The notes beneath the pieces were generated by a model. The model worked only from the letters and a program-made list of their open reading frames with translations. It ran no database searches and was not told the DNA's origin. The translations under genes were made by a program, and so were the position numbers. 64,000 nucleotides of DNA from Gammaproteobacteria bacterium (GTDB lineage: Bacteria > Pseudomonadota > Gammaproteobacteria > Pseudomonadales > Azotimanducaceae): contig JAPOVK010000020.1 in assembly GCA_026708185.1 (NCBI GenBank), positions 1 to 64,000 on the forward strand, read 5' to 3'. How positions within the stretch are numbered: position 1 is the stretch's first letter; each line of letters begins with the position of its first letter. Of this stretch, positions 36,807 to 46,755 are shown piece by piece.

Positions 36807-37790
36807 TTATTCCGCGCCGCGTTGTTCGGCGACCACCGTCGCCATTCCGGGCCACTCGTGCCAGATGTCGCACAACGCCTCGGGGTAGATGGAACGGTTC
36901 GCCGACGGCCGGCGCTCCGGCATGATGCGGAAATAGGCCATCAGCCGCGGTTCCGACCCTTCCACCCTTGTCGCACAGTGCGGGACGGCATGAAGGACTA
37001 GAACAGCATCCCCGGCCGCCATGCGCACCAGCGTGGGCTTCGGCCAGAACCGGCCGTCGGCCGTCTCCACGCCATGCGGTCGAAAGGCCTCGCGCACCGC
37101 GTCCGGATAGTGGCGCAGTCCCGAGGCGTTGGGCGCGCCGGTGTCGACCCGTGGCCAGCCAGGGCCATCGGGACCCAACGGGCCGCCCGCTTCGCGCTGG
37201 CCGCGGAAGAACCTCTCCATCTCGTGGTGGGCGCCCTTCAGCACGCCCACGTTGCCGACGCCCTCCTCGGTCTGGTCGGACAGCGCCACCCCGACCAACG
37301 CGGCGAAGTTCATGATGTTGACGTTGCGTTCCGGATGACACTTCAAGCAGCCGTTGCGCGACGGGTCGCCGTGCCAGGCGTCATGTTCCTCCGCCGTCAT
37401 GGCGCGGCTCACATCCTGGTGCATCGGGGCGGCCCCGTTCCACAAGCCGTCGAGATGGCCGTGCCAGCCGAAGAAGGGCGTGTCCCGGTCCGGGTAGCCG
37501 GACTCGTTGATCCTCTCGGATGGGTCCCTCGGGAATTGCGACGCCAACTGCACGCCGCGATGGCGCACGATCGGCCCCAATGCCTCGGCGATGATCGCCG
37601 CGATGTCCGTGCGGTTGTAGAGGTCCATGAACACCGCGTCGGTGCCCCGGGCGGGCTCGCCGCCACCGAGCCCGACGAAGATCCGCCGCCGCGCGGCGGC
37701 CACCATCTCCGGCGGGACGACGCCCGGCAGCACGACGAAGCCGTCCCGGTAGAACGACCGCTTCTGCTCGAGGGTCAGGGCTTGTGGCAC
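36807..37790 (-). CDS. Phytanoyl-CoA dioxygenase family protein
   Basis: A 327-residue Fe/2OG oxygenase that opens QKRSFYRDGFVVLPGVVPPEMV. Likely iron ligands are H112 and D114 (WHGHLDG) with a distal histidine in LHAVPHCATRVEG; the R after it would bind 2-oxoglutarate. A cysteine/histidine stretch (GCLKCHPERNVN) is unusual and might be a structural metal site. It heads a two-gene operon with the formyl-THF hydrolase-like gene. Substrate unknown. Confidence 0.85.
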   Translation of the reverse strand: MPQALTLEQKRSFYRDGFVVLPGVVPPEMVAAARRRIFVGLGGGEPARGTDAVFMDLYNRTDIAAIIAEALGPIVRHRGVQLASQFPRDPSERINESGYPDRDTPFFGWHGHLDGLWNGAAPMHQDVSRAMTAEEHDAWHGDPSRNGCLKCHPERNVNIMNFAALVGVALSDQTEEGVGNVGVLKGAHHEMERFFRGQREAGGPLGPDGPGWPRVDTGAPNASGLRHYPDAVREAFRPHGVETADGRFWPKPTLVRMAAGDAVLVLHAVPHCATRVEGSEPRLMAYFRIMPERRPSANRSIYPEALCDIWHEWPGMATVVAEQRGAE

Positions 37791-37970
37791 AAGCTACGCC
37801 TCGAAGACGGCCCGCCGCGCCAGTCTTCGTTGGAGGTACCGTCTTGGGAGGTGACCATAAGCGCTCAAGTGTAGCGAGGCCCTGTGCGACTTGATAGCGC
37901 GCAGTAGTTGACCGTGCCACCATAGCGGGTCAGGCCACACCTCGATGTGGCCCGAGAGTTGGAGAACCGC

Positions 37971-38393
37971 ATGCCCATCAAGAGAATCTTCGGCATCGTC
38001 GAGGACGTGAAGAAACACATCGAGAACCTGTCCATCGAGCAGTTGAAGGCGGAACTCGGGGACCCCGAGACGCTCGTCGCCGACATCCGCGAGATCCAGG
38101 AGCGCGTCGACCTCGGCACCATACCGGGCTCGAAACACGCCCCCCGCGGCATGCTGGAGTTCTGGGCCGATCCGCAGAGCCCGTACTACCGGGACTGGTT
38201 CGAACAGGACAAGCGGATCGTGCTGTTCTGCGCCGGCGGCGGTCGTTCAGCGCTGGCCGCGAGAGCGCTGATGGACATGGGCTTCACCAACGTCGCCCAC
38301 GTCGAGCCGGGCTTCACCGGCTGGCAGGAAGCGGGGGAGGAGATCGAGGACGTGAGCGCGACGAGCCGCTGGGTTCGACGCGAGAACCGCTAG
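37971..38393 (+). CDS. Single-domain rhodanese (sulfurtransferase)
   Basis: A 140-residue rhodanese transferring sulfane sulfur through an active-site persulfide. The catalytic loop is LFCAGGGRSALAA with the nucleophilic cysteine first. VADIREIQERVDLGTIPGSKHAPRG is the substrate-side signature. The ATG at 37971 has GGAGAAC upstream. It converges with the glutaredoxin-like selenoprotein candidate, overlapping it by 4 bp at the 3' ends, so two thiol-redox proteins lie tail to tail. Confidence 0.9.
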   Translation: MPIKRIFGIVEDVKKHIENLSIEQLKAELGDPETLVADIREIQERVDLGTIPGSKHAPRGMLEFWADPQSPYYRDWFEQDKRIVLFCAGGGRSALAARALMDMGFTNVAHVEPGFTGWQEAGEEIEDVSATSRWVRRENR

Positions 38394-39124
38394 CCGTCCC
38401 AGACGCCCGACGGCAGCGGCAGGCCGTCGAAATCCCCCGTCGCCAATGGTCGGTCGGGCGTGATGCCAAGCCGCTCAAGCAGCATGGCTTGTTGGCGGAC
38501 ATGTTGAGCCACGTGCCAGGTGCATCGTTCGAGCACCGCATGAAGCGTGGACGGGCCGAAGAACGTCGCCACCTCGTCGCCGGGGGACAACGGCGACTCG
38601 CCCACCAAAGCAGCGACGACCGTGTCAGATCGCGCGACCAATGCCTTGCGACCGACCTCGGCGTCCGGAATCGCTGCGGAGACGCCGTGGTCGAAATCCG
38701 CGCCCGCAGCCACCTTCACGTATCCTGCGGCGATCTCGACGATGTGGTTCGCCAGCGCCAAGTTCGTCCGGTCGCGGTTGGGCAGTCGGTCGCTTAGGTT
38801 CACGGCCGGGAACTGGGCGGTGAGCCGCTTCGACGTCGCCAGAGCGTGCCGCAGCCGGTCAACGAGCATATCCGGAGACAGTGCCGGGGTCGCCTCGTAG
38901 TCGACTCCGAGCAACTCGGCAACCTGCCCGAGGTCGACGCCCGGCACCCACCGCTCGCCGTCGGCGACTACGGGAACGGCGTCGGCACCGAGATTGCGTA
39001 GCCGAGCGAACGCGTCGCCGTCGTTGGCGATGTCCCTGGAGGCGAAGTCGATCCCACGGACCGACAGGAATTCCTTAATCCTTAGGCAACTGGTTCAGCC
39101 GGGTTGCCAGAAGACTTCGATCAT
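38390..39124 (-). CDS. Glutaredoxin-DinB-like protein with in-frame TGA: candidate selenoprotein
   Basis: Read through TGA at 39097-39095, this is a 244-residue protein. It opens MIEVFWQPG, then U10, then TSCLRIKEFL, i.e. a UxxC in place of the glutaredoxin CxxC. RGIDFASRDIANDGDAF and ADAVPVVADGERWVPG complete the thioredoxin fold with its cis-proline. The rest is a DinB-like helical bundle with TLHAVLERCTWHVAQHVRQQ. The ATG overlaps the TGA stop of the upstream PhyH gene (ATGA at 39124-39121), and codons after the TGA stay open with normal codon bias to 38390. A conventional gene call would begin at the GTG at 38947 and miss the redox domain. A weak hairpin follows the TGA (AGGA/TCCT plus ACC/GGT, loop holding GG). 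The alternative is a recent TGC-to-TGA mutation or sequencing error. Confidence 0.75.
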
Positions 39125-40050
39125 TCGAATTGGGACTCCGTTGTCGGCGTCAATGCCAGCGTGGCCGGCGGCCCGTCCGTCAACCAGGGGTAGGCCGAGT
39201 AGAGCCCCATCAACGCGCAGAACCGGCTGTTGTTGCGCTCGATCATCTCCGGGGTCGTGCTGGCCCAGTAGAGTTCCTGCGCCTGCACATGATCCCGCAC
39301 GTGCGGTAGCACGAGTGTCACGCGCTCGCCGGCGGACGTACGCGGCACGGCGCCGTGCCACAGGCTGCCGTGCCAGACGATGACCGAACCCTTCGGCATC
39401 TCCAGAACTTCGACCTCCGGATGGTCGTGCGCCATCGCGAGATCCGGCGGCACCGGCCGGCAGAAACGATGGCTGCCCGGCCAGACGCACACCGCCCCGT
39501 TCTCGCGCGTGTAGTCGGTCGTCACCCACGTGACGTTGCAGTACTGCGCCACGCTCGGCCACGGCGCCGGGATCTTGCCGCTGTGGTCGGCGTGGAGGCG
39601 AAGGGGCTTGGTGCCTGCCGCCTTCACGAGGCCAGTGGATTGGCTGAGCTTGGCCCGGTAGCCAAGCAGGTAGGTAACGAGTGCACCCGGCGCCCGGGCA
39701 AGCAAGGCTTCCTCGATGATGCGTGCGCGTGGAAGCAGGTGGAAGAGCGTGTTGCCGAGGCCCGACTGAGGTCCGAGATTGCGCGATGCGTCGTCTTCGG
39801 CAAGGGCAAGCAGCGTCTCCCGGAGGTCGTCGAAGAAGTCGACGGGCTTGGCCTTGCCGGGCGGCAGCACGGTGTAGCCGTTGGTCTCGAGGTCGGCAAT
39901 GTGGGCCTTGAGGTCCAGGGCCTCGACTTCCCGCTCGAGCGCGGCGCGGGCCGCATCCCCCTTCGGCAGCGGCTCCGCCTCGTACTTCGCCATCGCCATG
40001 GCGCGCAACTTGGCGAGGTGCGCAATCAAGGGTTTCGTGTCCAAGGCCAT
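39121..40050 (-). CDS. Phytanoyl-CoA dioxygenase family protein
   Basis: A 309-residue Fe/2OG oxygenase starting at ATG 40050 (the frame continues upstream without family-like sequence). A long N-terminal helical part with charged repeats precedes NGYTVLPPG, the beginning of the oxygenase fold. H153 and D155 (LRLHADHSG) and a distal histidine in LWHGAVPRTSAGER form the expected metal and co-substrate site. Its stop overlaps the start of the glutaredoxin-like gene, so the two are co-translated. It is divergent, with only 22 bp to the short aldolase-like gene. Confidence 0.85.
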   Translation of the reverse strand: MALDTKPLIAHLAKLRAMAMAKYEAEPLPKGDAARAALEREVEALDLKAHIADLETNGYTVLPPGKAKPVDFFDDLRETLLALAEDDASRNLGPQSGLGNTLFHLLPRARIIEEALLARAPGALVTYLLGYRAKLSQSTGLVKAAGTKPLRLHADHSGKIPAPWPSVAQYCNVTWVTTDYTRENGAVCVWPGSHRFCRPVPPDLAMAHDHPEVEVLEMPKGSVIVWHGSLWHGAVPRTSAGERVTLVLPHVRDHVQAQELYWASTTPEMIERNNSRFCALMGLYSAYPWLTDGPPATLALTPTTESQFE

Positions 40051-40072
40051 CCCGGTAACTTTACACGAGCAG

Positions 40073-40762
40073 ATGCAACGAGCGATCGAAAAGCCCGTCG
40101 GCACGCCCGTGCGAGACATCGACACGCCGGCGTTGCTGGTCGACTTAGAGCGCCTCGACGCCAACGTCGGCGTCGTTCAAGGCCCGGCTCGCGCCGAGGC
40201 CTGGGTGCACAAGACGCCCGCAATAGCCCGCCGCCAGACCGCCGGTAGCAATGTCGTCGGCATCGCCGTGCGCAGCATCGCCGAAGCCGAGGCGTTCGCC
40301 AACGCCGGTTTCGACGACATTCGCGTACTCCGCCCGTTGGTGACGCCGGCGTCGCAACGGCGCGCCGCGGCGCTCGGCAGGTCGATCCGACTGTGCCTAG
40401 CGGACGACGGCGTTCCGCTCACAGGCGCCGATGCGCTCGACGACGCGGTCACCGTGTCGTCCCACGTGACCAGCGCTCCCGAACCGGGTCGTGCGATCCT
40501 GGATTGCGGACAGAAGGCCATCGGCCGCGACTTCGGCGACCCGACGGTCGTCGGCTACGAGGGCTGGCGCGCATCGGCCGGAAGCGCCGAACACGGCGGG
40601 ATCGCCTATCCCGCCGACGCGCCGCAACTGGCCATCGGCGACTGGCTCGAGCTGCGACCCGCGGACGTGGCCAGCGTGTTCTCCCTGCACGACGTCGCCT
40701 ACGGCGTTCGTGACGGCGTACTGGAAGTCGTCTGGGCGATCACCGCGAGAGGCGCGTTTTGA
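40073..40762 (+). CDS. Shortened DSD1/D-threonine-aldolase-like paralogue, probably inactive
   Basis: A 229-residue protein sharing both ends with the DSD1-like alanine-racemase-fold family: IDTPALLVDLERLDANVG at the start and GRAILDCGQKAIGRDFG through LHDVAYGVRDG at the end. About 130 residues of the central TIM barrel are missing. In the family motif R-P-H-x-K-x-H-K, the PLP-binding lysine aligns with W44 here; only the downstream HK (46-47) remains. The C-terminal zinc motif H-x-C is also replaced (RPADVASVFSLHD). The family otherwise cleaves or dehydrates D-beta-hydroxy amino acids. Its stop overlaps the TTG start of the full-length paralogue, so it may serve as a partner or regulator. 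Confidence 0.75.
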   Translation: MQRAIEKPVGTPVRDIDTPALLVDLERLDANVGVVQGPARAEAWVHKTPAIARRQTAGSNVVGIAVRSIAEAEAFANAGFDDIRVLRPLVTPASQRRAAALGRSIRLCLADDGVPLTGADALDDAVTVSSHVTSAPEPGRAILDCGQKAIGRDFGDPTVVGYEGWRASAGSAEHGGIAYPADAPQLAIGDWLELRPADVASVFSLHDVAYGVRDGVLEVVWAITARGAF

Positions 40763-41844
40763 AGATCGGCACGTCCGTCGAGGAACTCGATACGCCGGTC
40801 GCGTTGATCGACCTGGATCGACTAGAACACAACATCGGCGTCATCGCGGCACATTATCGCGACAAGACGATCCGCCTGCGCCCGCACGGCAAGAACCACA
40901 AGTCGCCACAGATCCTCGGTATGCAGATCGCCGCCGGCGGCACCGTGGGCGGCGTATGCGCCGCCAAGGTCTCCGAGGCCGAGGTGTTCGTGAACAACGG
41001 TGCCGACAACGTGCTGATCGCCAATCAGGTGGTCGACGCGGACAAGATTCTGCGCGTGGCGGCGCTCGCGAGACGGGTAGAAACGACCGTCGCCATCGAC
41101 AACGAGGTCCACATCGAACGGCTCGCCGCCGGGGCCCGCGCCCTCGACACGACGCTCGGCGTTGTCGTCGAAATCGACACCATGATGGGCCGCGGCGGCG
41201 TTCGTACGATCGAGCATGCCGTTACGCTCGCTCGGATCGTGACCGCGACACCGCACCTGCGCTTTCGCGGTGTCATGAGCCACCAAGTGCCCACGCAAAG
41301 ACCGCCGACCCGGGCCCAGCGCTTCGAAGAAGGCGGTCGTTACATCGAACACGTGCTCGCCGCCAAACGCGCCATCGAGGCCGCCCGCATCCCGGTGGAC
41401 ATCGTGTCCACGGGCGAGACATGGACCTACGACGTCGCGGCGACATTTCCAGAGGTCACCGAAATCGAAGGTGGCTCGTACATCGTTATGGAGGTGCCCT
41501 ACGCGTACATGGACGAGTTCCGCTATGCGCTGCGCATCATGGGCCGCGTGGTCGCCCGCCCGGATGGGCGCACGGCCATCGGCGACGTTCCCATCGACGC
41601 CATCGCCGCACCGAACGGACTGCCGACTCTCAAGGGCGTCGACGGCGTGGCGGTGAGCGCTATCGACCACCACGGGATCACGCTGTCGAGCGAAACCGAG
41701 GTCCCACTCGGTATTGGCGAGGCGTTCACCTTGCTGACCCACCAGCAGGACATGACGGTCAATCGCTGGGACCGCTTCGCTGGCGTCCGCAACGGCGTGG
41801 TGGAGACGATCATCGAGGCACTGGCGCGCGGCTGCACAAACTGA
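40759..41844 (+). CDS. DSD1-type PLP enzyme (D-threonine aldolase / D-serine dehydratase family)
   Basis: A 361-residue alanine-racemase-fold enzyme. LDTPVALIDLDRLEHNIG opens it, and RPHGKNHKSPQI (41-52) carries the PLP lysine K45; EIDTMMGRGG, FRGVMSHQVP and STGETWTY line the barrel. The C-terminal beta domain ends WDRFAGVRNGVVE. The expected metal site there reads LLTHQQDMTVN, so metal ligands may differ from the H-x-C of D-serine dehydratase. It probably cleaves a D-3-hydroxy amino acid. It starts at a TTG overlapping the short paralogue's stop (TTGA). Confidence 0.82.
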   Translation: MKIGTSVEELDTPVALIDLDRLEHNIGVIAAHYRDKTIRLRPHGKNHKSPQILGMQIAAGGTVGGVCAAKVSEAEVFVNNGADNVLIANQVVDADKILRVAALARRVETTVAIDNEVHIERLAAGARALDTTLGVVVEIDTMMGRGGVRTIEHAVTLARIVTATPHLRFRGVMSHQVPTQRPPTRAQRFEEGGRYIEHVLAAKRAIEAARIPVDIVSTGETWTYDVAATFPEVTEIEGGSYIVMEVPYAYMDEFRYALRIMGRVVARPDGRTAIGDVPIDAIAAPNGLPTLKGVDGVAVSAIDHHGITLSSETEVPLGIGEAFTLLTHQQDMTVNRWDRFAGVRNGVVETIIEALARGCTN

Positions 41845-41893: not shown

Positions 41894-41905
41894 GACAACG
41901 TTGTC
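41894..41905 (+). promoter_or_regulatory. LacI-family operator O2
   Basis: A second identical palindrome GACAACGTTGTC, 34 bp centre to centre from O1 and just after the -10 box, about at the transcription start. Two sites on either side of the core promoter allow occlusion of RNA polymerase by a repressor bound at both. Confidence 0.82.
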
Positions 41906-41963
41906 ATCGCCCTGCCAAGAAGCCGGGAACGACAGCAGTGTGCGTGTTCGACGGAGGGCCGCA

Positions 41964-44930
41964 ATGTCGCACGAGAGTTTCAGGAAGACGCCGGTCGCGG
42001 CCGCCGTCTCACTCGCCTTGGCCAGTGGCACGGCATCGGGCCAGGAGATCCAGTCGGCCGCGGCGGATCCGACCATGGTCGAAGAGGTGATCGTCGTCGG
42101 CATCCGTCAGAGCTTGAAGCAGTCCATGGACTTGAAGCGCGCCCGCGACGGCATCGTCGATGCCATCACCGCCGAGGACATCGGGGACTTCCCGGACAGC
42201 AACCTCGCCGAGTCGCTGCAGCGCATCACCGGCGTCTCCATCGACAGGGAGCGCGGCGAGGGTGCGCGCGTCACCGTGCGCGGGTTCGGGCCGGACTTCA
42301 ACCTCGTGCTCCTGAATGGTCGCCAGATGCCGACCAGCAGCGGTCTCGGCCGCTCCTTTGATTTCGGCAACCTCGCATCCGAAGGCATAAGCGCCGTCGA
42401 GATCTACAAGACAGGTCAAGCGGACGTCCCCACTGGCGGCATCGGCGCCACCATGAACATCCGCACGACGCGACCGCTCGATGCGCCCGGCATGACGTTC
42501 ACCGCCGCCGGCAGCGGACTGCACGACCGCTCCACCGAGGACGGAAGCGGCTTCACGCCGGAAATCTCGGCGCTTTTCTCGAACACCTTCGCCGACGATC
42601 GCGCCGGCATCGCGCTGAGCGTTGTGCGCCAAGACCGCAACAACGGCGCAAACACGGCGAGCGTCGGCGGCTGGCGCACGTTCCCTGGCGACGTCAACAA
42701 CTGCTGGTGCGGCGTCGGGCGTTCGGAATGGGGCGGCATCCCCCCGCAAGGCGATCCCAATCAGCAGAATCGCCCGGGCGACAACGACTTCTATTCCGTG
42801 CCGCAGAGCATTGGTTACGAGTTGGCGGAGTACGCCCGCCTGCGTACGAATGGCCAGCTCACGCTGCAGTGGCAGGCGTCCGAAACCCTGACCGCCACGC
42901 TCGACTACACCTATTCGGAGGTGGAACTCGAGCGCACCTACAGCAACCTCTCCGCGTGGTTCAACTTCGGCGGCCAAGAGACCCTGTGGTCGGATGGTCC
43001 GCAAGCCTCGCCGCTGACCTACACGGAGAACTCGGCCAACAGCGACTACTCGATGGGCGGCGGCCAGGACGCGTGGCGCGCGCAGAACGGCGCTACCGGC
43101 TTCAACTTGCTCTGGGATGCCACGAATCACCTGTCGTTCGAGTTCGACTACCACGACTCCACGGCAGACCGCCAACCCAACAGTCCCTACGGCGATTCGG
43201 CGCTGCTGTCGACGGCAGCGTTCTCGCGCAACAAGACGACGGGCTACTTCGGCACCGAACTGCCCGTGCTCGAGCTGACGCTCGGCGACCCGCTGTCCCC
43301 GGACGACATGATCGTGACCGGCAGCGTGTTCACGAACAACTTCTCGAAGATGGGGATCGAACAGACCAGGGTCGGCGGCACCTACAGCTTCGACACCGGA
43401 TTCGTCGAGAGCATCGACTTCGGCATCCAGCTTACGGAAGTGAACAACCGTTCGGCGGGTTCCGTCGTGCAGCGCGATGCGTGGGGCGGGGTTACCCAAC
43501 CCGGCGCGATCGCCGATCTCCTGACGCCGGCTTCGTCCGCCGACGCGTTCGACCAAGTACCGGGCGGTGAGGACTCTCGCCGGCAAACGGAGTTCTACCG
43601 TTTCGACATGGGCGCCTTGGTCGCAAGGACCGAGCAGCTCATGGCGTCCGGCGAGGCGACCACGTTCATGCTCACGGACATGGGCGACTGCGGCACGGGC
43701 CTTTGCACCTCGAGCCGATTCACCGCCGACCGGCGTACGATCGAAGAATCCGACGCGCTGCACGTGCAGTTGAACATGGGCTCGAACTGGGGAACCGCCG
43801 CCGTCGACCTTCGCCTCGGCCTGCGTTACGAGAGCACGGACATCGATTCCGAGGCGCTGTCGCCGTCCTACACCCGCATCAACTGGATCGCCGGCAACGA
43901 GTTGACGGCTGTCCAGGCCGGCCCGGACTTCACTTCGCTCACCGGCAGCTACGATCTCCTGCTGCCGAGTTTCGATTTCAAGATCGACCTGACCGAGGAA
44001 CTCGTCGGCCGCTTCTCCTATACCGAGACCATGACGCGCCCCAACTACGGCGACATCCAAGGCGGCCAGACCATCAACTCCCTGGTCCGCGTGGACGGCG
44101 GCACGGGCAACCGCGGCAACCCGAACCTGTTGCCGTTCGAGGCGCAGAACTACGACTTTTCCGTGGAGTACTACTACGGCACGGACAGTTACGCCGCGGT
44201 GGGCTACTTCATCAAGGACGTGGACAACTTCATCGGCACCTCCTCGGTCGTGGAGACGACCTTCGACCTGCCGCACCCGGCTCTCGGCCCCCTAGCCGAC
44301 GAGGCTCGCGCGGCCACTGGCAGCGTTGACTCGGGTGCCTTGTACACCTGGATCCTGGCCAACCGGGCCGACCAGCCCGGCGTGGACGCGGCGAACGGCA
44401 TCATCTCAGGTGTCGCAGGCCGCGACCCGGCTTCACCGTTCAACCTGACGGTGCCGGTGAACATCGAACAGGCGACCATGAAGGGCTGGGAAGTCGTCCT
44501 GCAGCACAACTTCGGCGACAGCGGCTACGGCGTCATCGCCAACGCCACGATCGTCGATGCCGACGTCGGGTACGACAACCTGAGCCTCGAGCAGCAGTTC
44601 GTCCTGACGGGCTTAAGCGACTCCGCCAACGTCATCGGCTTCTACGACAAGGACGGGTTAAGCGTCCGCGTCGCCTACAATTGGCGCGACGACTTCCTGG
44701 CGGGGACAGGACAGGCCAACGTCGGTGCCGGGCCGCCGACCTACGTGGCCGCTTACCAGCAGGTGGACATCAGCGCGAGCTACTGGTTCACCGACATGAT
44801 GCAGGCGTACGTCGATGTACTCAATCTCACCGACGAAACGACGCATGTGTACGGGCGGGACAGGCTGCAGACGCTGTTCGCCGGGCAAGCCGGCCCGCGG
44901 TACAACCTAGGCTTCAGGTACAAGTTCTGA
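41964..44930 (+). CDS. TonB-dependent receptor (Xanthomonas/Caulobacter type)
   Basis: A 988-residue outer-membrane receptor starting at ATG 41964 after GGAGGG. The signal peptide (VAAAVSLALASGTASGQ) is followed by EEVIVVGIRQSLKQSMDLKR, the start of the TIGR01782-type plug. NLAESLQRITGVSIDRERGEG and VTVRGFGPDFNLVLLNGRQMP complete the plug. The 22-stranded barrel ends YNLGFRYKF with a terminal aromatic. Such receptors import oligosaccharides by TonB energy, and the GH3 and LacI genes downstream point to a carbohydrate. Control by O1/O2 is visible upstream. Confidence 0.93.
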   Translation: MSHESFRKTPVAAAVSLALASGTASGQEIQSAAADPTMVEEVIVVGIRQSLKQSMDLKRARDGIVDAITAEDIGDFPDSNLAESLQRITGVSIDRERGEGARVTVRGFGPDFNLVLLNGRQMPTSSGLGRSFDFGNLASEGISAVEIYKTGQADVPTGGIGATMNIRTTRPLDAPGMTFTAAGSGLHDRSTEDGSGFTPEISALFSNTFADDRAGIALSVVRQDRNNGANTASVGGWRTFPGDVNNCWCGVGRSEWGGIPPQGDPNQQNRPGDNDFYSVPQSIGYELAEYARLRTNGQLTLQWQASETLTATLDYTYSEVELERTYSNLSAWFNFGGQETLWSDGPQASPLTYTENSANSDYSMGGGQDAWRAQNGATGFNLLWDATNHLSFEFDYHDSTADRQPNSPYGDSALLSTAAFSRNKTTGYFGTELPVLELTLGDPLSPDDMIVTGSVFTNNFSKMGIEQTRVGGTYSFDTGFVESIDFGIQLTEVNNRSAGSVVQRDAWGGVTQPGAIADLLTPASSADAFDQVPGGEDSRRQTEFYRFDMGALVARTEQLMASGEATTFMLTDMGDCGTGLCTSSRFTADRRTIEESDALHVQLNMGSNWGTAAVDLRLGLRYESTDIDSEALSPSYTRINWIAGNELTAVQAGPDFTSLTGSYDLLLPSFDFKIDLTEELVGRFSYTETMTRPNYGDIQGGQTINSLVRVDGGTGNRGNPNLLPFEAQNYDFSVEYYYGTDSYAAVGYFIKDVDNFIGTSSVVETTFDLPHPALGPLADEARAATGSVDSGALYTWILANRADQPGVDAANGIISGVAGRDPASPFNLTVPVNIEQATMKGWEVVLQHNFGDSGYGVIANATIVDADVGYDNLSLEQQFVLTGLSDSANVIGFYDKDGLSVRVAYNWRDDFLAGTGQANVGAGPPTYVAAYQQVDISASYWFTDMMQAYVDVLNLTDETTHVYGRDRLQTLFAGQAGPRYNLGFRYKF

Positions 44931-44982: not shown

Positions 44983-45034
44983 ATGGTACAAACGCCACAG
45001 GAAGCGCTGCGACCGACGGCGTCTTGTACCGTGG
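44981..45034 (+). repeat. Imperfect inverted repeat in the receptor-halogenase gap
   Basis: Left arm CCATGGTACAAACGCC (44981-44996) pairs with right arm GGCGTCTTGTACCGTGG (45018-45034), with one mismatch and one bulge, around a 21-nt loop. It directly abuts the preceding hairpin. It might be part of a processing or attenuation region, or the footprint of a small mobile element. The remaining ~150 bp to the halogenase start shows no gene. Confidence 0.6.
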
Positions 45035-45183
45035 ACAGTCGGCGTGGCCTTGGGCCGGAGGCGTACCCGGCGCACAGCGTGAGCGAAGCGCCGTGTCGGC
45101 CATGGGGCGATTCCGTAGTATCGACGCCTTGGTTCCATCGTGCGGGCGGAATGGCCTTCCGCGACTCACGCGACGAGGTGGTG

Positions 45184-46755
45184 ATGAACCGGCCAACCAC
45201 GAGGGTCGTGATCGTCGGCGGCGGCACGGCCGGCTGGATCACCGCCAACGCCATCGCCGCCGAACACCGCCCGGACAGCCCGTCCGGCGTCCAAGTCGTC
45301 CTCGTCGAGTCGCCCGACATCCCGACCATCGGCGTCGGCGAGGGGACCTGGCCGTCGATGCGCATGACGCTCCAGCGCATCGGGCTCTCCGAAGACCGCA
45401 TGATCCGTGCGTGCAACGCGAGCTTCAAGCAAGGCACCCGCTTCCGAGGCTGGTCGGGGCGCGACGGCGACGACGGGTACATCCACCCCTTCAGCCTGCC
45501 CACTGACTACGCCACGGACAATCCCGCCACGTCCTGGCTCGCGAGCAAGGTGAGCGTACCCTTCGCCCACTCCGTCACCCCCCAAGCGACCCTCATCGAG
45601 GGCGGCCTTGCGCCCAAGCAGGCCACCACGCCGCAGTACGCGTTCGCGTTCAACTACGGCTATCACCTGGACGCCGGCGCGTTCGCCGACCTGCTCCGCC
45701 AACACGCCGTCGAGGGGTTGGGAGTCGTGCATATCGAAGGCAACGTCGAGCGGATCGAGGCTGGCCCGAGCGGCGACCTCGCAGCCGTGCTGCTGAGCAC
45801 AGGCGAGCGCATCGACGGCGAGCTGTTCGTCGACTGCACCGGTCAACGGGCACTGCTCATAGGGCAGCACTACGGTGTCGGATTCACGTCGGTCAAGGAT
45901 GTGCTGTTCAACGACACCGCCCTCGCGGTACAGGTCCCCTACGCGAACCCGGACGATGCCATTGCGTCGGCAACCCAAGCGACCGCCGAGACGGCGGGAT
46001 GGATCTGGGACATCGGTCTGCAGACGCGCCGCGGTGTCGGCCACGTCTATTCCGCGGCGCACGCCGACCAATCGGCCGCCATGGCGGCACTCGAGCGCTA
46101 CGTCGCCCGCACATCACCCGGTGTTGACTTCGCCAACCTCGATGTCCGCACGATCTCCTTCGAGCCGGGCTACCGGCAGACCTTCTGGTTTCGAAACTGC
46201 GTTGCCGTCGGCCTTTCGGCTGGCTTCGTCGAGCCGCTCGAGGCGTCCGCGCTGGCGCTGATCGAGCAGTCGGCCAGCGCTATCGCGACGCAGTTGCCGC
46301 GCGACCGCAAGGTCATGGACGTGGTCGCCAAGCGTTTCAACGCCAAGCTCTGCTATCACTGGGAACGCATCGTCGAGTTCCTCAAGCTGCACTACGTCGT
46401 CAGCGAGCGGGATGACGCGTATTGGCGGGACCACCGCACCCCGGCGTCCCGCTGCGCCGGCTTGAACGACAAGCTCACCCTTTGGCAGCAGCAGCCGCCA
46501 TGGCATGACGATGCACCCAGGATCGACGAGTTGTTCCCGTCGGCCAGCTACCAGTACGTGCTCTACGGCCTCGGCTTCCGACCAGCCGACATGGTCGCGG
46601 ACCAAGCATCCGTCGACCGGGCGCGCGAGCGCACTCGAAAGCTGCTCTACGCTACGCATTCCAAGGCAAGCCAAGCGGCCAGGATGCTGCCCACCAACCG
46701 GGCTTTGCTGCGCCAGGTTGCCGAACGGACCACCGGCGCAAACTGCCATGGCTGA
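45184..46755 (+). CDS. Tryptophan-halogenase-family flavoprotein, first copy
   Basis: A 523-residue flavin-dependent enzyme from ATG 45184. The FAD-binding VVIVGGGTAGWITANAIA opens it; SFKQGTRFRGW corresponds to the active-site lysine region, and GLSAGFVEPLEASALALIEQS is the conserved FAD-side motif. The diagnostic W-x-W-x-I-P of true halogenases is only partly kept (GWIWDIGLQTRRG lacks the proline). In TonB-receptor loci these proteins are common and their substrate is usually unknown, so halogenation should not be assumed. It overlaps the sapC start by 8 bp. Confidence 0.85.
   Translation: MNRPTTRVVIVGGGTAGWITANAIAAEHRPDSPSGVQVVLVESPDIPTIGVGEGTWPSMRMTLQRIGLSEDRMIRACNASFKQGTRFRGWSGRDGDDGYIHPFSLPTDYATDNPATSWLASKVSVPFAHSVTPQATLIEGGLAPKQATTPQYAFAFNYGYHLDAGAFADLLRQHAVEGLGVVHIEGNVERIEAGPSGDLAAVLLSTGERIDGELFVDCTGQRALLIGQHYGVGFTSVKDVLFNDTALAVQVPYANPDDAIASATQATAETAGWIWDIGLQTRRGVGHVYSAAHADQSAAMAALERYVARTSPGVDFANLDVRTISFEPGYRQTFWFRNCVAVGLSAGFVEPLEASALALIEQSASAIATQLPRDRKVMDVVAKRFNAKLCYHWERIVEFLKLHYVVSERDDAYWRDHRTPASRCAGLNDKLTLWQQQPPWHDDAPRIDELFPSASYQYVLYGLGFRPADMVADQASVDRARERTRKLLYATHSKASQAARMLPTNRALLRQVAERTTGANCHG

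Follow-up and report, generated by a model that had tools for sequence, protein, structure and literature searches.

Classical glutaredoxins (Grx) are small, single-domain proteins, and forms that contain selenocysteine (Sec) in a UxxC motif (PF00462) are known. The Sargasso Sea survey recorded 10 Grx selenoprotein sequences with UxxC (PMC1088965), and the GOS survey 42 Grx-like and 2 Grx selenoproteins, a sequence being called Grx-like when its pfam00462 e-value was over 0.001 (PMC2398784). A compilation of 2026 sorts the prokaryotic selenoproteins into 119 families and subfamilies. It tabulates Grx (PF00462, UxxC) together with further Grx-like families, and UXX-star family 1 is given as UxxT and family 2 as GxGU (PMC13188914). 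The DinB/YfiT-type thiol transferases (BstA, YfiT and MST, of the S-transferase-like superfamily) are four-helix bundles. DinB-type S-transferases have been described, most of them with a metal held by three histidines, a site present in YfiT and most DinB members; the thiol of BstA, YfiT and MST is bacillithiol or mycothiol, and the sections on these proteins mention neither a redoxin domain nor Sec (PMC10950700). A 2011 title in the reference list of that article places glutathione S-transferases among the DinB proteins.

Within a window of 64,000 nucleotides (the whole stretch of DNA analysed), we identified a gene on the minus strand (38390..39124, stop TAG) whose product of 244 residues is, on the evidence of sequence, very probably a selenoprotein composed of a UxxC glutaredoxin domain, with Sec at position 10, and a DinB-type bundle. 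The protein has the fold of the Sec-containing Grx and the same Sec position in UxxC, and, like the Grx and Grx-like selenoproteins that the Sargasso Sea and GOS surveys describe, it is glutaredoxin-related and carries UxxC. Unlike the classical Sec-Grx, which are single-domain, it is fused to a DinB bundle of about 160 residues. This C-terminal half is a four-helix bundle as in the DinB/YfiT-type thiol transferases, and its H127, H204 and H208 may be compared with their three-His site.

No family in the table of PMC13188914 contains DinB, and the word is absent from the main text of that article and from that of the GOS survey (PMC2398784); glutaredoxin and DinB are both absent from PMC5322559, on genes near Sec genes. 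Full-text searches of a paper collection gave no paper that pairs a selenoprotein with DinB, or DinB with a glutaredoxin domain, and among the matches listed for selenocysteine with DinB none was, by title, a Grx-DinB selenoprotein. The window protein scored under every curated cut-off of the NCBIfam Grx models listed (highest TIGR02196, 36.4 vs 88.55 bits), and none of the four family members scanned exceeded the cut-off of any NCBIfam model. The NCBIfam UXX-star and HUGP/GUXX-star models (NF041212, NF041211, NF047338, NF045501), which represent Grx-like selenoproteins, match the Grx half weakly, at no more than 27.9 bits with cut-offs of 66-325. We file the UxxC glutaredoxin selenoproteins as known and the Grx-DinB fusion as a new architecture within the Sec-glutaredoxins, lying outside the PMC13188914 table and the NCBIfam models over cut-off; annotation may therefore shorten such genes to an internal start. 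The fusion links selenium to the DinB thiol-transferase superfamily, and the Grx-like group of the GOS survey may include fragments of the Grx-DinB family.

Reading frame and domains

The minus-strand frame starts at an ATG (39124-39122) and reads nine codons (MIEVFWQPG), an in-frame TGA (39097-39095), assigned to Sec as the first residue of UxxC by frame and homologues, and then TSCLRIKEFL and onwards, with 234 sense codons between the TGA and the TAG (38392-38390), just as the earlier note had read it. That note had also pointed to an ATGA overlap of the translational-coupling type with an upstream PhyH gene and to a shortening of the gene by gene callers to GTG 38947. Both are found: the start shares an ATGA (39124-39121) with the TGA stop of a PhyH-type dioxygenase gene (39121..40029, minus strand; start uncertain, the ORF lister giving 39121-40164), and the lister begins the selenoprotein gene exactly at GTG 38947 (185 aa).

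The glutaredoxin domain (38954..39121, minus strand; residues 2-57) matches Pfam PF00462 at 36.1 bits, with a gathering score of 22.9, and the DinB-type helical bundle (38393..38875, minus strand; residues 84-244), which holds the three-His site, falls under the Pfam cut-off in the window protein (18.6 vs 24.8 bits). At E<=0.01, Glutaredoxin was found in all 32 of the sequences scanned and DinB_2 in 30 of them. Six positions are invariant in the 32-sequence alignment: residue 10 (Sec entered as Cys), C13, P51, H127, H204 and H208. In the glutaredoxin fold, a residue of the P51 type serves as the cis-Pro.

An AlphaFold2 model built from this alignment had a pLDDT of 93.8 and a pTM of 0.90. In Foldseek (TM by target length), its N-terminal half matched 3zit and 7c10 (both 0.90) and its C-terminal half the DinB proteins 6iz2 (0.77) and 2f22 (0.74), with a further match to the DinB-fold 1rxq; among the 50 rows listed, no structure matches both halves well. 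The best PDB sequence match of the family profile was likewise 7c10, titled dithiol cGrx1, which we take to be the selenoprotein Grx of Clostridium oremlandii in a Cys form. A PDB sequence search with the DinB part alone gave weak matches only, and H127, H204 and H208 align to histidines of the DinB-fold 2p1a in a weak match (E 0.034). Glutathione S-transferases also join a thioredoxin-type N-terminus to a helical C-terminus, and many of the 50 Foldseek rows listed are such proteins, but with a TM of just 0.25-0.36; in these rows, DinB proteins match the helical half of the window protein far better.

Codon 10 and the downstream hairpin

We investigated codon 10 in 85 loci, namely the best 80 of 341 relatives from a scan of genome contigs and five from an order-level search, own copy included. 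These comprised 44 with TGA, 26 with TGC and 15 with TGT; removal of three duplicates (L088, L096 and L115, the same sequences as L030, L029 and L028) left 82 distinct full-length loci, with TGA in 41, TGC in 26, TGT in 15 and no other codon. The two peptide patterns of the scan, one with Cys at codon 10 and the other downstream, did not favour TGA; the ranking of the best 80, by likeness to the TGA-form query, did favour it, so that 41 TGA to 41 Cys is no estimate of frequency. In the loci read, then, codon 10 is either Cys or TGA, which agrees with the placing of the TGA at the first Cys of the glutaredoxin CxxC, as the earlier note had it.

Other searches extended this distribution. Six of 13 matches on plasmids were read, all with Cys at codon 10 within V[FY]W..GCSSC; the remaining seven are R. 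leguminosarum rows with match statistics identical to those of H6. The order-level search of 390 genomes gave four full-length relatives besides the own copy, with one TGA in each, and among the other matches listed from the 145 matching genomes coverage was of the Grx part only. A class sample of 369 genomes contained two matches at E<=1e-20, the own genome and one Cys form. In the same-family search of 200 genomes, a full-length copy was found in 30 (own included), every one of them with a single TGA, located at codon 10 in the 22 checked for position and scored by TGA count in the other eight. On this ground we rejected a pseudogene and a sequencing error; nor does the result fit the lone TGC-to-TGA change that the earlier note had offered as another explanation. 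A later batch of 17 TGA loci includes several that resemble genes already counted, and hence is no independent test.

The relative L056 is 87% identical to the window gene, with a TGA at the same place, and differs from it by a single base in the first 105 nt. Synonymous-only codon differences between the two number none in the first 35 codons and 42 in the 209 others (Fisher P=0.0012), as would be expected where a coding frame and an RNA signal overlap. The dN/dS is 0.20 over the whole gene and 0.50 over codons 11-59 (TGA to GTG), where there are few synonymous changes (4).

It could be argued that the TGA is a real stop, through nonsense mutation or sequencing error, and that a truncated DinB-like protein is made from GTG 38947. 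The lister does have an ORF from that codon, and solved DinB structures without a redoxin are known. We nevertheless regard this as scarcely credible, given the single TGA of every same-family full-length copy, the TGA at codon 10 in half of the distinct loci, the lack of synonymous-only change in codons 1-35 relative to L056 and a hairpin that covaries.

In bacterial SECIS elements the loop starts 16-37 nt after the UGA, is 3-14 nt long and has a G in its first two positions. The selenoprotein reading is accompanied by a SECIS-like hairpin (39047..39065, minus strand), in which an 8-bp stem, GUCGGUCC/GGAUCGAC, closes a GUG loop (39057-39055) with -10.2 kcal/mol on its own. The earlier note had called a hairpin here weak and not clearly in keeping with the SECIS rule; the hairpin is in fact not weak, and its loop, which starts 37 nt downstream of the UGA, still falls within the spacing range, at the upper limit. 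The loop agrees with the small apical loop containing a guanosine that is described for bacterial SECIS elements (PMC1088965). Minimum-energy folds that begin with the UGA contain the hairpin when 51 or 63 nt are folded, but with 57 nt a different pairing wins. At gathering scores, Rfam returned a tRNA and no SECIS family for the window.

The criteria of our own hairpin scan were fixed first, and a shuffle test was added after its result had been seen. With synonymous-codon shuffles of each gene, P<0.05 was obtained in 40 of the 41 TGA members, including the window gene (P=0.007), and in none of the 41 Cys members; the sole TGA member above this value was L080 (P=0.079).

Covariation was measured in 22 distinct class I segments, from which class II (nine loci), class III (three loci) and the class III-like L144 were excluded because their hairpins lie elsewhere. 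In class I, the CGUG of the stem end and loop is invariant and 89.8% of cells pair, the innermost pair forming in 9 of the 22 segments. Cells changed on both sides numbered 21, against 7.2 in shuffles, the covariation score was 0.451 against 0.252, and the pairing signal is lost on shifting the register by 1-3 columns. There was no excess of pairs with a double change (4 vs 3.2 in shuffles, with 178/500 as high) or of further pair types (10 vs 9.7, with 315/500 as high). Thus two of the five measures do not exceed the shuffles, which themselves ignore the relatedness of the sequences. Among 40 distinct Cys segments, three of the class I pairs form in 30, 33 and 29, but none of the segments has the pair at offsets 7 and 15. 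Overall, the sequences support a SECIS-like hairpin with compensatory changes in TGA members that is absent from Cys members.

The class II hairpin, ACGAAAGA-GUU-UCUUUCGU, has 7-8 bp and a loop 23 nt after the UGA, and is found in nine TGA loci (L064, L065, L087, L089, L099, L103, L106, L110 and L127) about 16-34 nt after the TGA. This hairpin, also SECIS-like, serves the same Sec codon and is non-homologous to class I. The class III hairpin, in three TGA loci, is shifted by four nt.

Selenocysteine machinery and predicted activity

The earlier note had proposed a search of the genome for selA, selB, selC and selD, and family searches of the source assembly (65 contigs, 97% complete) recovered all four over cut-off. 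These were selA (C3:245827-247152, 545 bits), selB (C3:243974-245797, 385 bits) and tRNA-Sec (selC; C3:243822-243911, 68.8 bits, anticodon UCA by ARAGORN), which are consecutive on contig C3, the matches standing 29 and 62 nt apart, and selD (C3:379969-380874, 250 bits). The motif around the SelA lysine is intact. We additionally compared 25 of the 41 distinct TGA loci with 25 of the 41 Cys loci, near copies having been avoided before the result was known: selA was over cut-off in 23 of the 25 TGA genomes, whereas it was so in 7 of the 25 Cys genomes (P=6e-6). In the two TGA genomes in which selA was not found, the loci stand on short MAG contigs (4,336 and 3,540 bases), and genome incompleteness is a possible explanation.

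A rival reading is that a suppressor tRNA or a changed code inserts Cys or Trp at the UGA. In some bacteria, suppressor forms of tRNA-Cys that carry a UCA anticodon have been reported, and Cys would be tolerated at codon 10, where it is found in half of the 82 loci. Against it, the complete selA, selB, selC and selD set with its intact SelA lysine motif, the restriction of a significant hairpin to TGA members, and the neighbouring genes, of which 4 of 9 ORFs end in TGA, together make this reading very unlikely; on the last observation we also rejected a general change of code.

The Grx-like UxxC selenoprotein with a C-terminal DinB-type bundle that the earlier note had proposed is therefore supported by the sel genes, the homologues, the hairpin, the Pfam matches and the model. 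At the level of sequence, the signs are a conserved frame on both sides of the TGA, an exchange of Sec and Cys, the Sec machinery, a covarying hairpin and two domains; that Sec is actually incorporated at residue 10 is what we infer. Translation would begin at ATG 39124 in coupling with the PhyH gene. At codon 10, SelB and tRNA-Sec would decode the UGA as selenocysteine, assisted by the hairpin (39065-39047), with Sec-tRNA made by SelA and SelD of the same genome.

The selenol would then attack disulfides or glutathione adducts, and the DinB domain would bind or activate glutathione at a metal. We tentatively suggest that the protein could be a glutathione-dependent reductase or S-transferase acting, through its selenol and DinB metal, on a small electrophilic or disulfide substrate, on the basis of the three-His site, the DinB S-transferases described in PMC10950700 and a glutathione synthetase found over cut-off in the source genome.

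Gene neighbourhood and evolution of the Sec form

A quick tree of the part after the hairpin requires a minimum of 3 switches between Sec and Cys and of 8 between hairpin classes; in the same tree 31 of the 79 inner forks are open, and the starred branches force only 1 Sec/Cys change. In AU tests, neither Cys as one clade (p 0.27) nor hairpin class II as one clade (p 0.44) was rejected. We thus rejected a repeated origin of Sec as a demonstrated result, and regard repeated gain of Sec as possible. In combination, it is conceivable, if rather doubtful, that a DinB-type thiol transferase recruited a selenol redoxin as a built-in redox partner, that its Sec form is tied to the Sec machinery, that the Sec and SECIS history is a repeated one and that the protein is perhaps a main Sec client. 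If this were true, the hairpins with loops 37 or 23 nt after the UGA would mean that Sec was gained, or the SECIS relocated, more than once, and the Grx-DinB enzyme might, as a main client, maintain the Sec trait in these lineages. For Cys-to-Sec replacement and SECIS origin, a natural test set is offered by the Sec and Cys forms, the differing hairpins and the selA/selB neighbourhood.

In a Rhodospirillales MAG (L071:1480-5842), selA, the Grx-DinB gene, selB and tRNA-Sec follow one another in that order, and in L087, L089, L099, L103, L106 and L127 selA and selB come after the Grx-DinB gene, all three on one strand. Among the flanks examined, selA and selB adjoin the Grx-DinB gene in 7 of 41 TGA loci and in none of 41 Cys loci (P=0.012, which overstates independence because six of the seven loci are one clade). 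These two arrangements would suit a selenoprotein that works in selenium supply and not in general thiol chemistry, for example by reducing selenium-glutathione adducts for SelD. This proposal concerns function alone and is compatible with the selenoprotein claim. We consider it unlikely: in 18 of the 25 Cys-form genomes tested no selA exceeded the cut-off, and the Cys form therefore does without Sec synthesis, and the window neighbours are PhyH, rhodanese and other metabolic genes. The rhodanese-domain gene (37947..38393, plus strand) is convergent, overlaps the 3' end of the selenoprotein gene by 4 nt and has no in-frame TGA.

Neighbouring genes differ between lineages and point to no substrate. 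Nine of the 41 TGA loci, and none of the 41 Cys loci, have flanking ORFs of the same blastp cluster as the PhyH-type gene. They lie upstream in L026, L056 (the same place as in the window), L059, L060 and L062, and downstream in L029, L030, L068 and L078. Upstream in L028, L029, L030, L068, L078 and L094 there are ORFs that by eye look VOC-like and TPP-enzyme-like, and most other loci are unlike these; a substrate read from gene neighbourhood was thus rejected.

In L028, L029, L030, L068, L078 and L094, we also noted a short ORF directly 3' of the gene, by eye of the amidase/peptidoglycan-recognition type. In the window, a second PhyH-type dioxygenase-like ORF was recognised by eye at 36807-37790 on the minus strand, with no Pfam match at E<=0.001. 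On the plus strand, two ORFs overlap in tandem (39881-40762 and 40759-41844), the second matching Ala_racemase_N and the first appearing by eye to be a partial relative of it. Further along the same strand, there is a TonB-dependent-receptor-like ORF, again named by eye (41901-44930), and then a gene of the tryptophan-halogenase type (44983-46755).
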